A DNA stretch of 32,490 nucleotides from Flavobacteriaceae bacterium (lineage in GTDB: Bacteria; Bacteroidota; Bacteroidia; Flavobacteriales; Flavobacteriaceae). Location: positions 1 to 32,490 of the forward strand of contig CANGUP010000017.1 in the NCBI GenBank assembly GCA_947457105.1, written 5' to 3'. This document shows positions 16,727-21,708 of the stretch, piece after piece. Every line of letters starts with the position of its first letter. The stretch's first letter is position 1. The translations under genes and the position numbers were made by a program. Below the pieces are notes generated by a model. It worked only from the letters and a program-made list of their open reading frames with translations, had not been told where the DNA came from and made no database searches.

Positions 16727-17542
16727 ATGATTATTCCAAAAACAAGAGAAGAAATTGAGTTAATGCGCGAAAGTGCATTGTTAGTTTCTAAAACATTGGG
16801 CGAAATTGCAAAAGTTATTAAACCTGGTGTAACTACATTACAATTAGACAAGTTAGCTGAAGAATTTATTCGAGATAATGGTGGTGTTCCGGGATTTCTT
16901 GGACTTTATGGTTTTCCAAATTCTTTGTGTATGAGTCCAAATGCTCAAGTAGTTCATGGAATTCCAAATGCAAAACCCTTGGAAGAAGGTGATGTAATTT
17001 CAGTAGATTGTGGTGTTTTGATGAATGAATTTTATGGTGACCACGCTTATAGTTTTGAAATTGGTGAAGTTGCTCCTGAAGTAAAAAAACTTCTTAAAGT
17101 GACTAAAGAAAGTCTTTATGTTGGAATAAGAGAATTTCGTTCAGGAAATAGAGTTGAAGATGTAGGAAATGCAATTCAAAAATATTGTGAAGGTCATGGA
17201 TATGGTGTGGTTCGTGAACTCGTTGGTCACGGTTTAGGAAGAAAAATGCACGAAGATCCAGAAATGCCAAATTACGGAAAACGCGGTCGTGGAAAATTTT
17301 TTGTGGAAGGCATGGTTGTTGCTATTGAACCAATGATAAACATGGGTACAAAAAACATAAAACAACTAAAAGATGGTTGGACCATTCTAACAGCCGACGG
17401 AAAACCAAGTGCTCATTTTGAACACAATGTAGCTTTAATAGACGGAAAACCAGAAATTTTATCGACTTTCAAATACATTTATGATACTTTAGGAATTGTA
17501 AGTGATGAGGAAAAGGAGTTTAGAAATCATTATACATTGTAA
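16727..17542 (+). CDS. map: Type I methionine aminopeptidase
   Basis: MIIPKTREEIELMRESALLVSKTL, SVDCGVLMNEFYGDHAYSFEIG, VRELVGHGLGRKMHEDPEMPNY; ATG at 16727 preferred over upstream start at 16697. Confidence 0.97.
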   Translation: MIIPKTREEIELMRESALLVSKTLGEIAKVIKPGVTTLQLDKLAEEFIRDNGGVPGFLGLYGFPNSLCMSPNAQVVHGIPNAKPLEEGDVISVDCGVLMNEFYGDHAYSFEIGEVAPEVKKLLKVTKESLYVGIREFRSGNRVEDVGNAIQKYCEGHGYGVVRELVGHGLGRKMHEDPEMPNYGKRGRGKFFVEGMVVAIEPMINMGTKNIKQLKDGWTILTADGKPSAHFEHNVALIDGKPEILSTFKYIYDTLGIVSDEEKEFRNHYTL

Positions 17543-17563
17543 TTTTATACGAATTTTATTTAA

Positions 17564-17605
17564 TCCACTAAGATTCACAAAAGTGATACAAAGATTCGCA
17601 AAAAA
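17564..17605. repeat. Left imperfect inverted repeat flanking the GxxExxY gene
   Basis: tccactaagattcacaaaagtgatacaaagattcgcaaaaaa; about 28/36 matches to the reverse complement of 18008-18050. Confidence 0.75.
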
Positions 17606-18016
17606 ATGGTAGACGAAAATATAAATAAGATCGACTCTGATTTAGAAGCTATAGCTTATAAAGTTATTGGTCTCGCTATTGAAGTTCATCGAACTCTTGG
17701 TCCAGGACTATTAGAATCAGCATACCAAGAATGTTTATTATTTGAGATTTCAAATGCAGGCTTAAAAGTTGAGAAAGAAAAACTTTTGCCAATAAAATAC
17801 AAAGAAATTCAACTTAATCACGGCTATAAAATTGATCTTTTAATTGAAGATAAATTGGTTATAGAATTGAAGACAGTTGAAAATTTCACAACAGTTCATT
17901 ATGCTCAAATTTTAACATATTTAAAACTTGGGAAGTATCCTTTGGGATTACTTTTTAACTTTAATTCTAAAATTTTACGAAACAACATAAAACGATTTAT
18001 AAATACTCCTTCGTGA
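17606..18016 (+). CDS. GxxExxY protein (PD-(D/E)XK_3-like putative nuclease)
   Basis: GLLESAY (GxxExxY) motif; HGYKIDLLIEDKLVIELKTVE with D and ExK catalytic-type residues. Confidence 0.93.
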   Translation: MVDENINKIDSDLEAIAYKVIGLAIEVHRTLGPGLLESAYQECLLFEISNAGLKVEKEKLLPIKYKEIQLNHGYKIDLLIEDKLVIELKTVENFTTVHYAQILTYLKLGKYPLGLLFNFNSKILRNNIKRFINTPS

Positions 18017-18050
18017 GACTTTGTGTCTCCTTTGTGAATCTTTGCGAAAC
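18008..18050. repeat. Right imperfect inverted repeat of the GxxExxY unit
   Basis: cttcgtgagactttgtgtctcctttgtgaatctttgcgaaac; inverted relative to 17564-17605; contains gagac-tttgt-gtctc hairpin; supplies the GxxExxY stop codon. Confidence 0.75.
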
Positions 18051-18056
18051 AAAAAA

Positions 18057-18827
18057 ATGAAGAAACTATTCAAGTTCATATTAAATACCATTCCTCGTCC
18101 GATATTGATTCGTTTGAGTATTGTAGTGCGTCCTATTTTGGCATTTTTGTTAAAAGGAAGTCGTTTTACTGATCCCATTGATGGAAAAAGTTTTAGAATG
18201 TTTTTGCCTTATGGTTATGGAAATCAAAGAAATAACGTTCTTTCTCCGAGCACTTTGTCATTAGAAAGACATCGTTTATTGTGGTTGTATTTACAAAACG
18301 AAACTGATTTTTTTACTTCAAAAGAAAAGAAAAAGGTATTACATTTTGCTCCTGAACAAGAGTTTTACAAACGTTTCAAGAAGCAAACTAACATCGATTA
18401 TACTACAACTGATTTACTTTCGCCCTTGGCAGATGTAAAAGCTGATATTTGCAATTTACCGTTTGAAGATAATCAATACGATTTAATTCTTTGCAACCAC
18501 GTTTTAGAACACATTCCAGATGACACTAAAGCCATGCAAGAATTGTTTAGAGTTTTAAAACCCGGCGGAATGGGAATCTTTCAAATTCCACAGGATTTAT
18601 CGAGAGCAATTACTTTTTCTGATGATACTATTGTTGACCAAAAAGAAAGAGCCAAAATCTTTGGGCAATATGATCACGTTCGTGTATACGGAAGAGATTA
18701 TTTTGACAAATTAAGAAGCATCGGATTTAGAGTTATCGAAGAGGATTATACTTCTAAACTTACACCAGAATTAGTAGAAAAATATTGTTTAGCAAAAGGC
18801 GAAATTATCCCAGTTTGTTTTAAATAA
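18057..18827 (+). CDS. Class I SAM-dependent methyltransferase
   Basis: KVLHFAPEQEFYKRF, DICNLPFEDNQYDLILCNHVLEHIPDDTKAMQELFRVLKPGG. Confidence 0.93.
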   Translation: MKKLFKFILNTIPRPILIRLSIVVRPILAFLLKGSRFTDPIDGKSFRMFLPYGYGNQRNNVLSPSTLSLERHRLLWLYLQNETDFFTSKEKKKVLHFAPEQEFYKRFKKQTNIDYTTTDLLSPLADVKADICNLPFEDNQYDLILCNHVLEHIPDDTKAMQELFRVLKPGGMGIFQIPQDLSRAITFSDDTIVDQKERAKIFGQYDHVRVYGRDYFDKLRSIGFRVIEEDYTSKLTPELVEKYCLAKGEIIPVCFK

Positions 18828-18843
18828 TTCCAATATAAAAAAC

Positions 18844-18879
18844 AAAACCCTGTTAACTTTTACATTAACAGGGTTTTTT
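18844..18879. terminator. Bidirectional terminator between methyltransferase and convergent M16 peptidase
   Basis: aaaaccctgttaa-cttttaca-ttaacagggtttttt. Confidence 0.9.
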
Positions 18880-18897
18880 AGTTTTCAAAGAAATCTA

Positions 18898-21708
18898 TTA
18901 TTTCGTTTCTGGCATTAGAATTCCAATAACTTTATCTTTAGTTAGATACTTTTTAGCTACATCTTGAATTTCTTTAGCTGTTACGCTATTGATTTTTTCT
19001 TCCATTGATAAAACTTCTTCAGCAGACGATGAAAACGTGTAAGCTTTTGTAAAATTACTCAACCAAAATCTGTTTTCCTTACTGTCTTTTTTAAAGTCGG
19101 CAATTTCACCTTCTTTAAATTTGGCTACATCTTTTTCATCTGGACCATTATCAATAATTTTTTGCAATTCATTTAAAGCAGAAGCTGTTAATTTCTCAGC
19201 ATTTTCTGGTCCGCATGGGAAACCTATACTAAAATTATACGACCCGCTTGGCACTTTATTTAGGCTTCCTCTTGCAGAAACTCCGTAAACACCACTTTCA
19301 TTTTCTCTTAATTCTTCAATTAATTTTATAGTAAGAACTTCACCCAAAGCTTGAATTGCCATAGCTTCTTTTGGAGAATAAGTTGTGTCACCATAATACA
19401 TAATCGTTACATTACTTTTAGGATCGGAACCTTTATTAACAACTTTTTTCAAGTCACCTTTTACCATTCTATATCCTAAATCTATTGCTTTTTCTTTAGT
19501 AGTGTTTGAAGGCAACGATGCAATATATTTTGCCGAAAATTCTTCAATTTGTTTATCATCTACGTTACCAACGAAGAAAAATTCGAAATCTCCAGCATTG
19601 GCAAAACGCTCTTTGTATTTATCATAGGCCAATTTATAATCGGTTGCTGTCCATGCTTTTTCGTCAGGAAATATACCAATAAACCTTGGATTGTCTTTCA
19701 TTAAATAGCCATAAAATTCTTGTTGAAAGTACACATTAGGTTGCGACGATAAATTCTTGAAAAAAGCCGATTGTTTTTGTTTGTAACTCTCAAATGCTTC
19801 GTTATCATAATTTAAATCGGTCATGTAAGCATGTGCCATTTGAAATAAATATTCCAAATCTTTTGGCGTAGTACTTCCTCTTAAACCTTCGGTAACATTA
19901 CTTATATATGGACTTACATTGGCAATTTTACCCGACATAAACTTGTCAATATCATTTTTCTTTAATCCAGAAAAACCTGCTTCGGTTAATCCACTATTAG
20001 CAAACTGAACTTTCCTTAACTCTTCATTACTATAAATACTCATTCCTCCAAAACTTACCGCTTCCATTAAAATTTCATCATTTTTAAAATCGGTTTTCTT
20101 GTACGTAACTTTAGCACCATTAGATAAAACTAAAGTTGTAGTTCCAAGTTTAGCATTAGTTTCTTTTTTTACAACTGAACCAGCTTTTATCTCTTTTCTA
20201 ATCAAACTTGAGGCAAGAGCCGTTTCTTTGTAAGCAGTAATACCAGAATCATCTGCATTTATAACAGCTAAAACTTCGGCTTCAGTTACTTTTTTCAAAC
20301 CTTCTTTTTCTGGACCAGTTAACAGCACAAATCTATTTTCATCTTTAATGAAATTTTTAATCAAACCATTAGTTTCTGATAAAGAAATACTTGGAATCAT
20401 CTTTTTCACCGCTTCAAATTCCCATTCAATTCCTGGTGCAGGAACATTTTCTAGAAAATAAGATTGGTATTCCGACACAAATCGCTCTGAGTTGGTTTTA
20501 TCTTTTTCTTTAAAAGTTCTTTCATAATTCGCAATAACTTCTGCTTTAGCTCTATCCAATTCGCCTTGCGTAAATCCGAATTTTTTTGCTCTATTATTTT
20601 CTGTTACCAATACTTTTAATGCCTCCAATTGCTTCTCTTCAGACATCATTGCAAACGATTGATAGGCTTCTTTAGTTCTAGCAAATGTTCCACCATGATA
20701 AGAATATCCGTAAACAAATGGTGGATTTGGTGCATTGGTTAATTCTTGCAATCTATTATTTAACATGGTAGTAAATAATCCTTTAACCAAATCTTCTCTA
20801 TAATCATTTACTGTTACAGTAGGTTTTGGTTTTTCCAGATCATTATAAAGAAGTTGTACTTGTGCATCAGACGATTCTTTATCGGTTTCTATACTAACGA
20901 ACGTTTCTTTGTGATTTGGAACTTCATAAATTTTTCGTGGTTTTGCGTTTTTAGGATTTTTATAATTTGCAAAATGCGCAATTACTTTTTTCTCCATTTC
21001 GGCAACATCAATATCGCCAACTACAATAACCGACATCAAATCGGGACGATACCAATCTTTATAAAAACTAACTAATTTATCGTAGGTAAACTTTTCTAAA
21101 ATTTCTTTTTTTCCAATAGGAAGACGCTCTGCATATTGCGAGTTGTTCATCATTTTTGGTAAATATCGGTCCATCATTCGCTTGTCTGCACCAAGACCTA
21201 ATCTATATTCTTCTAGAACAACGCCGCGTTCTTTATCTATTTCTTCTGGAGTTAAATTGGCATTAAAAGCCCAATCTTCAATAATTTGAAATCCTTTTTC
21301 TAACTTTTCAGGACTATCGGATGGAATCGGTAAAAAGTATACCGTCTCGTCAAAACTTGTGTAAGCATTTAAGTGTTGCCCAAATTTTACTCCTATACTT
21401 TGCAAATAATCTACCAATTCATTTTTTGGAAAACGTTTCGTACCATTAAAACACATGTGTTCCATAAAGTGAGCCAAACCTCTTTGCTCATCGGTTTCAA
21501 GAATAGATCCAGCGTTGATAACTAATCGCAAATCGACCTTTTTTTCTGGTTTTGCGTTTTTTCTAATGTAATAAGTTAAACCGTTTTTTAGTTTTCCGGT
21601 TTTCACATTAGAATCAAAAGGAATTTTATCATCACCGTTTAAATCTTGCGCTAACAATGACAATGGAACTGCCAACAAGAATAGCATTGTTTTTCTAATT
21701 TTATTCAT
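18898..21708 (-). CDS. M16 family (insulinase-like) metallopeptidase, two-domain, secreted
   Basis: Signal peptide; HFMEH (HxxEH) zinc motif in RGLAHFMEHMCFNGTKRFPKNE; second M16 half in the C-terminus; 936 aa. Confidence 0.95.
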   Translation of the reverse strand: MNKIRKTMLFLLAVPLSLLAQDLNGDDKIPFDSNVKTGKLKNGLTYYIRKNAKPEKKVDLRLVINAGSILETDEQRGLAHFMEHMCFNGTKRFPKNELVDYLQSIGVKFGQHLNAYTSFDETVYFLPIPSDSPEKLEKGFQIIEDWAFNANLTPEEIDKERGVVLEEYRLGLGADKRMMDRYLPKMMNNSQYAERLPIGKKEILEKFTYDKLVSFYKDWYRPDLMSVIVVGDIDVAEMEKKVIAHFANYKNPKNAKPRKIYEVPNHKETFVSIETDKESSDAQVQLLYNDLEKPKPTVTVNDYREDLVKGLFTTMLNNRLQELTNAPNPPFVYGYSYHGGTFARTKEAYQSFAMMSEEKQLEALKVLVTENNRAKKFGFTQGELDRAKAEVIANYERTFKEKDKTNSERFVSEYQSYFLENVPAPGIEWEFEAVKKMIPSISLSETNGLIKNFIKDENRFVLLTGPEKEGLKKVTEAEVLAVINADDSGITAYKETALASSLIRKEIKAGSVVKKETNAKLGTTTLVLSNGAKVTYKKTDFKNDEILMEAVSFGGMSIYSNEELRKVQFANSGLTEAGFSGLKKNDIDKFMSGKIANVSPYISNVTEGLRGSTTPKDLEYLFQMAHAYMTDLNYDNEAFESYKQKQSAFFKNLSSQPNVYFQQEFYGYLMKDNPRFIGIFPDEKAWTATDYKLAYDKYKERFANAGDFEFFFVGNVDDKQIEEFSAKYIASLPSNTTKEKAIDLGYRMVKGDLKKVVNKGSDPKSNVTIMYYGDTTYSPKEAMAIQALGEVLTIKLIEELRENESGVYGVSARGSLNKVPSGSYNFSIGFPCGPENAEKLTASALNELQKIIDNGPDEKDVAKFKEGEIADFKKDSKENRFWLSNFTKAYTFSSSAEEVLSMEEKINSVTAKEIQDVAKKYLTKDKVIGILMPETK

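Follow-up and report, generated by a model that had tools for sequence, protein, structure and literature searches.

A GxxExxY nuclease-type gene at the map-methyltransferase junction of a Flavobacteriaceae genome lies between matched, element-specific inverted arms

Intervening sequences (IVSs) in 23S rRNA genes offer the closest described comparison for the locus reported here. In these insertions, an ORF for an S23 protein, a four-helix bundle, lies between terminal inverted repeats; in Coxiella, heptamer direct repeats (GACAGAT) precede the S23 ORF, and the IVS is cut by RNase III (PMC4990558). Our locus resembles an IVS in being a short element with one small ORF, terminal inverted repeats that are able to pair, and short direct repeats beside the ORF. 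The same genome also carries 13 four-helix-bundle elements that encode the IVS protein family itself (TIGR02436), and the Coxiella heptamers would, by analogy, fit the 7-8 nt arm class that we describe below for these elements. The locus differs from an IVS in its position, between map and a methyltransferase gene and not inside a 23S rRNA gene, in its ORF, which encodes a GxxExxY nuclease instead of S23, and in the period of its arms, 10 nt as opposed to 7 nt.

Other known systems can also be set beside the locus. Its protein shares a motif set and a predicted fold with Cas4, RecB and lambda exonuclease, but is a stand-alone protein of 136 aa encoded away from cas, recombination and phage genes. 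MITEs and insertion sequences likewise have inverted terminal arms, empty sites and gene-less derivatives, whereas here the arms differ from element to element, no transposase is seen, and there are no high-identity copies at multiple sites. Eukaryotic foldback elements have inverted ends made of short direct repeats, and in this they are alike; here, however, arms of ~40 nt surround one small gene, and the host is bacterial. A free-standing homing endonuclease gene would similarly appear as a small nuclease gene at a fixed site with empty alleles and a patchy distribution over species, but our locus has paired, co-evolving arms, a nuclease of another class, and a layout in common with a non-nuclease gene. 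In the open-access papers that we searched, we found no experimental work on GxxExxY proteins and no GxxExxY paper describing flanking arms or element status (a paper on bacterial reverse transcriptases names GxxExxY in passing). Papers on IVSs deal with S23 ORFs that lie within rRNA. The class of minimal, arm-framed elements is apparently undescribed, since no description of the architecture was found in those papers.

The window, by which we mean the whole stretch of 32,490 nucleotides that was analysed, is contig C17 of a draft genome (G000; 3.02 Mb in 229 contigs). The features at the locus, where all three genes are on the forward strand, are:

16727 to 17542, forward strand: map, type I methionyl aminopeptidase (TIGR00500, E 1.3e-84); the upstream host gene, which lies outside the element and defines the site
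17543 to 18056, forward strand: the whole element, filling the gap from the map stop codon to the methyltransferase start codon, as read from the sequence and from orthologous junctions that are empty (18-55 nt) in 13 same-genus genomes
17566 to 17603, forward strand: left arm, with the words CACTAAG, CACAAAA, TACAAAG and CGCAAAA at 17566, 17576, 17587 and 17597 (from the sequence, a repeat finder and shuffles)
17606 to 18016, forward strand: GxxExxY gene, 136 aa, a predicted RecB/Cas4-type PD-(D/E)XK nuclease by motif and fold (from profiles, alignment, AlphaFold2/Foldseek and dN/dS)
18009 to 18046, reverse strand: right arm, from its outer end inward CGCAAAG, CACAAAG, CACAAAG and CACGAAG at 18040, 18030, 18019 and 18009 (from the sequence, a repeat finder and shuffles)
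18057 to 18827, forward strand: SAM-dependent methyltransferase (PF08241, E 7.4e-16); the downstream host gene, which lies outside the element and defines the site

Each arm contains four 7-nt words whose starts are 10, 11 and 10 nt apart, and in register (17566-17603 against 18009-18046) the arms are alike at 28 of 38 positions. The first-pass annotation of this DNA had already recognized the flanking inverted repeats, although its 36-mers match at 27 of 36 positions and not at about 28 as it reported. Within 1.6 kb, the longest inverted pair that a repeat finder returned was 17555-17602/18010-18057 (48 nt, 73% complementary), and the arm match score of 43 compares with a mean of 16 (sd 3) for 5000 dinucleotide-preserving shuffles (p=2e-4). 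The same annotation had the repeats abutting the ORF start and supplying its stop codon; indeed, just 2 nt separate the left arm from the ATG, and the TGA stop (18014-18016) is inside the right arm. The GxxExxY ORF is the only one in the element, which is without a transposase in cis, and inspection of the ORF list by eye agreed with the earlier statement that no transposase-like gene is present among the window ORFs.

The 411-bp ORF had been assigned to the GxxExxY family on sight, and its 136-aa product is a full GxxExxY/PDDEXK_3 member, with matches to TIGR04256 (E 4.6e-42, 143 bits against a cut-off of 35) and PF13366 (E 5.9e-40, 136.7 bits against a cut-off of 22). Eight residues that are invariant over 22 homologues (G34, E37, Y40, D77, E87, K89, Q101 and Y105) are all found in the window protein, and the motif set of G..E, D, ExK and QxxxY is that of RecB/Cas4-type PD-(D/E)XK nucleases; YKIDLLI...IELK retains the D and ExK, as had been pointed out, in the form of D77, E87 and K89. 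An AlphaFold2 model (pLDDT 91.9) has Cas4 (4ic1, E 6e-4) as its best solved match in Foldseek, with lambda exonuclease at E 3e-3, the TM-scores being modest at 0.39-0.46. Together, motifs and model suggest a RecB/Cas4-type nuclease with the full set of catalytic residues and a probable Cas4/lambda-exonuclease-like fold. The gene has a dN/dS of 0.06 against its orthologue in the same-genus genome G013, and values of 0.02-0.09 across orthologues correspond to strong purifying selection. GxxExxY relatives were not found in phage records or IMG/VR, and eight plasmid records that contain them are all typed as non-mobilizable; on these records we reject a phage or plasmid vehicle.

Inverted arms are not confined to this copy. 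They surround all six GxxExxY genes of the genome, with a different sequence for each, and all 13 of its four-helix-bundle (TIGR02436, 23S-IVS/S23-type) genes, each of which lies between host genes (L037-L049) and has arm words such as AATTACGA, TTAGTCG, CAGATTG, ATTAGAT and GGTAGTA. For these 19 elements, the match of left arms to their own right arms totals 891, against 500 (sd 31) for permuted partners (0/20,000 permutations). The mean left-right score is 47 versus 25 for 80 GxxExxY elements of same-genus genomes, and 39.4 versus 21.8 for 41 four-helix-bundle elements (again 0/20,000 permutations). Taken individually, p<0.01 is reached by 117 of 178 GxxExxY elements, which represent 50 of the 64 sites sampled (Bacteroidota for the most part), and by 26 of 41 four-helix-bundle elements, so arms of the kind noticed at a single locus by the first-pass annotation do recur at other GxxExxY genes. 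Two examples come under labels other than Bacteroidota: L225, from a Marinimicrobia MAG, and L218, from the record BMS3Abin04. Between fabD and fabG of a Sphingomonas, a further copy has an upstream word array without a clear right arm. A scan covered 671 genes (0.81 Mb of the genome). Most of its strong scorers with arms of repeated words were GxxExxY and four-helix-bundle genes; no convincing third cargo family appeared in this 0.81 Mb, where the other high scorers look like chance matches in A+T-rich DNA or lie next to these elements.

Some flanks hold additional arm-like sequences. Complete inverted arm pairs occur beside the gene at L204 (both flanks), L206 and L207 (left) and L300 (right), the last of these, on a Gemmatirosa replicon, being a hairpin of such arms just downstream; at L181, the left arm is duplicated along with the first codons. 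These could be traces of abortive or past events. Elsewhere in the genome (L286, G000:C19, about 17978-19661), REP-like repeats containing GGATTCGCGCGGTAGC surround unrelated genes.

The arms of the two families differ in period. In the 178 GxxExxY elements, CRCNRAG words number ~2.2 per arm in the inward direction versus 0.2-0.3 on the other strand, and the commonest spacing of neighbouring words is 10 nt (118 left, 93 right). By autocorrelation, GxxExxY arms have a period of 10 nt (z about 8, with an echo at 21), and four-helix-bundle arms one of 7-8 nt (z 11-13 at lag 7, with echoes at 14 and 21). The arm sequence is specific to the element, which rules out fixed transposon ends, and the word type alone is common within a protein clade. 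The covariation of flanks with the gene, which the first-pass annotation had proposed as a check, is present for GxxExxY: even across separate genomic sites, more similar proteins have more similar arms (rho 0.42, permutation p<0.0005). For four-helix-bundle elements, there is no such overall relation (rho 0.08, p=0.24). Their arms are alike solely above 60% protein identity and unlike below it, which argues against simple sequence-specific binding in this family. Because these arms do not follow the protein, the likeness of an element's two arms is unlikely to stem from a fixed preference of the protein for one sequence; mutual complementarity, or copying, is the more likely cause.

Arms that drift independently should leave the left arm of one copy matching the right arm of an orthologous copy as well as its own. 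At the map junction, the self score for 54 non-redundant orthologues is 36.9 against a cross score of about 33.0-33.1 (permutation p<5e-5), with control orientations giving +1.0 (direct, p=0.017), +0.3 and -0.1. The excess of self over cross increases as copies diverge (-1.0, +7.0, +14.6), close relatives showing none. It is also seen for GxxExxY elements outside the map junction (p=0.0008), and 22 of 25 informative pairs of four-helix-bundle elements at shared junctions point in the same direction. The two arms of one element thus change together at a fixed site, and at the map junction this concerted signal is statistically clear and modest in size.

The map junction has a varied history. 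Among its readable same-genus versions, 13 are empty, often with an overlapping stop/start TAATG. One further same-genus genome (G013), the one with the closest copy, has an intact orthologue, 97% identical, and two (G017, G005) have decayed copies. A different GxxExxY lineage, 33-39% identical and with its own arms, occupies the junction in G009, G004, G015 and G008; in G009 it apparently sits beside what resembles a remnant left arm of the first type. In G021 (L073), a gene-less inverted arm pair of CACAGAG type, about 80 nt, is found, and in G012 (L055) an unrelated zinc-ribbon membrane-protein-like ORF. Over all the loci collected, 70 of the 178 GxxExxY elements are at this junction, a share inflated because one scan was queried with the window protein; they extend over much of Flavobacteriaceae, including named genomes of Flavobacterium, Flavivirga, Winogradskyella, Polaribacter, Aequorivita and Xanthomarina. 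The divergence of GxxExxY proteins corresponds only moderately to that of the methyltransferase (rho 0.39). As a separate observation, about 20 residues are inserted in frame near residue 88 of the methyltransferase ORF in L073, L074 and L076 (G021, G007, G010).

Four-helix-bundle elements turn over faster than GxxExxY elements, as at least seven of those in the genome have no gene in G013 while their flanks align. Three of the G013 junctions (L335, L337 and L336, opposite our elements L039, L049 and L042) hold short arrays of a different word with the gene absent, as if left by another element. At the junction common to L042, L302, L306, L309, L310, L312 and L323, the four-helix-bundle genes belong to two lineages that are only ~33% identical and have different arm words.

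Almost all sites within the genus have a protein clade to themselves, and no recent copy at a second site was seen there. The clearest case of relocation is a Sinomicrobium lineage at another site, which is nested inside the map-junction clade, has similar arms, and thus appears to have moved as a unit of gene and arms. With the recurrence of the arms and their covariation with the protein, this supports the earlier proposal that gene and repeats form one unit. The further suggestion, that the two move or are maintained together, stands as far as the unit is concerned; the shared junction and the site-bound clades show no trace of recent movement. We could read no target-site duplication, as the empty junctions are too diverged and the element ends are not sharply defined. 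The window element is a long-resident occupant of the map junction, and elements within the genus are mostly site-bound.

Matched arms that are specific to each element, their concerted change, a period typical of the protein family, and genes that come and go at fixed junctions are what we observe. The reading we favour, tentatively and with slightly less than even confidence, is that the window feature belongs, as a single copy, to a widespread class of transposase-less, single-gene elements of ~0.4-0.6 kb at operon junctions, in which the arms are paired or copied and the nuclease is the element's own enzyme.

The main rival to this reading of arms processed as DNA is a role in RNA similar to that of IVSs, in which the arms would pair in the operon mRNA and RNase III would cut the stem, releasing or insulating the small gene and leaving the protein secondary. 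The strong bias in orientation suits such a role: both neighbours are co-directional with the GxxExxY gene at 48 sites and both opposed at 3 (p=2e-11, one state per site), and 38 of 39 four-helix-bundle elements are in sense. Background pairs of neighbouring genes are co-directional in 77% of cases, so the notable part is sense versus antisense and not operon location alone. The window transcript is also predicted to fold with its arms paired (z -3.07), which keeps an RNA-level role under consideration, and the heptamer repeats and RNase III cutting of the Coxiella IVS (PMC4990558) are close to the 7-nt arms found here. On the other hand, mismatches between the arms on the sense strand show no excess of G-U over A-C (68 versus 108, 88 versus 126, and 42 versus 61) and so lend no support to RNA pairing as a constraint on the arms, in a comparison that the A-rich left arm weakens and makes non-final. 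There is no Rfam match in 17400-18200, and the GxxExxY fold is of a DNA-nuclease type. On balance, we regard an RNA-level explanation as unlikely.

Homing would account for much of the distribution. If the nuclease cut the empty map-methyltransferase junction and repair copied the element in, one would expect its occurrence at the same site over a bacterial family, a separate protein clade at each site, clean empty junctions amid patchy occupancy, and the only moderate agreement with the divergence of the neighbouring gene. The arms would then aid repair or be its scars, which leaves matching, co-changing and periodic inverted arms unexplained, as well as the sharing of this layout with a non-nuclease gene. 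Enzymes of the RecB/Cas4 type, moreover, usually process ends rather than acting at specific sites. We therefore think homing quite improbable.

Long residence at one junction, purifying selection (dN/dS 0.02-0.09) and sense orientation could instead describe a domesticated host gene, mostly vertical in descent and often lost, whose arms serve regulation, as operators, attenuators or controls of translation, and have no part in mobility. Regulatory sequences would hardly be expected on both sides of the gene and unique to each element, to persist as a pair after the gene is gone (L073), or to occur at dozens of unrelated sites in a layout common to an unrelated protein family, and simple domestication seems a poor prospect for these reasons. 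Finally, this A+T-rich genome has many short, imperfect inverted matches (30 pairs by the repeat finder, with chance pairs reaching 50 and above), but chance similarity of intergenic DNA is refuted by the shuffles of the window copy, the permutations over the 19 elements of the genome, and the recurrence in extended samples from many species, and its probability is negligible.

Returning to a single-gene element that owns its nuclease, we suggest the following course of events. The element would have inserted in sense at a junction of co-transcribed genes, a placement by which its gene is read from the host operon and neither neighbour is broken. Its arms may pair, or one may be copied from the other, through a fold-back or panhandle intermediate that serves upkeep or movement. 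The GxxExxY period of about 10 nt is equivalent to one turn of DNA, and the RecB/Cas4-like nuclease, as the element's own enzyme, could bind one arm word in about every turn of the helix and process the arm DNA. The map-junction copy would be bound to its site, kept under purifying selection, often lost, and occasionally replaced by another lineage.

We regard the window element as a variant of IVS-like elements, with a fair chance that it stands for a broader class. Less securely, and only as one possibility, such a class might be general in bacteria, maintaining arm complementarity, rather than any arm sequence, and a repeat period that is set by the protein family, probably through copying between arms, with 23S rRNA IVSs as a special case that resides in rRNA. 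Many Bacteroidota genes bear the unexplained annotations GxxExxY or "four helix bundle protein", and a shared element architecture gives these a role that can be tested. It would also connect the problem of 23S rRNA IVSs with insertions in protein operons, a far larger set, and the dozens of orthologous arms at one junction provide natural data on how inverted repeats stay alike.
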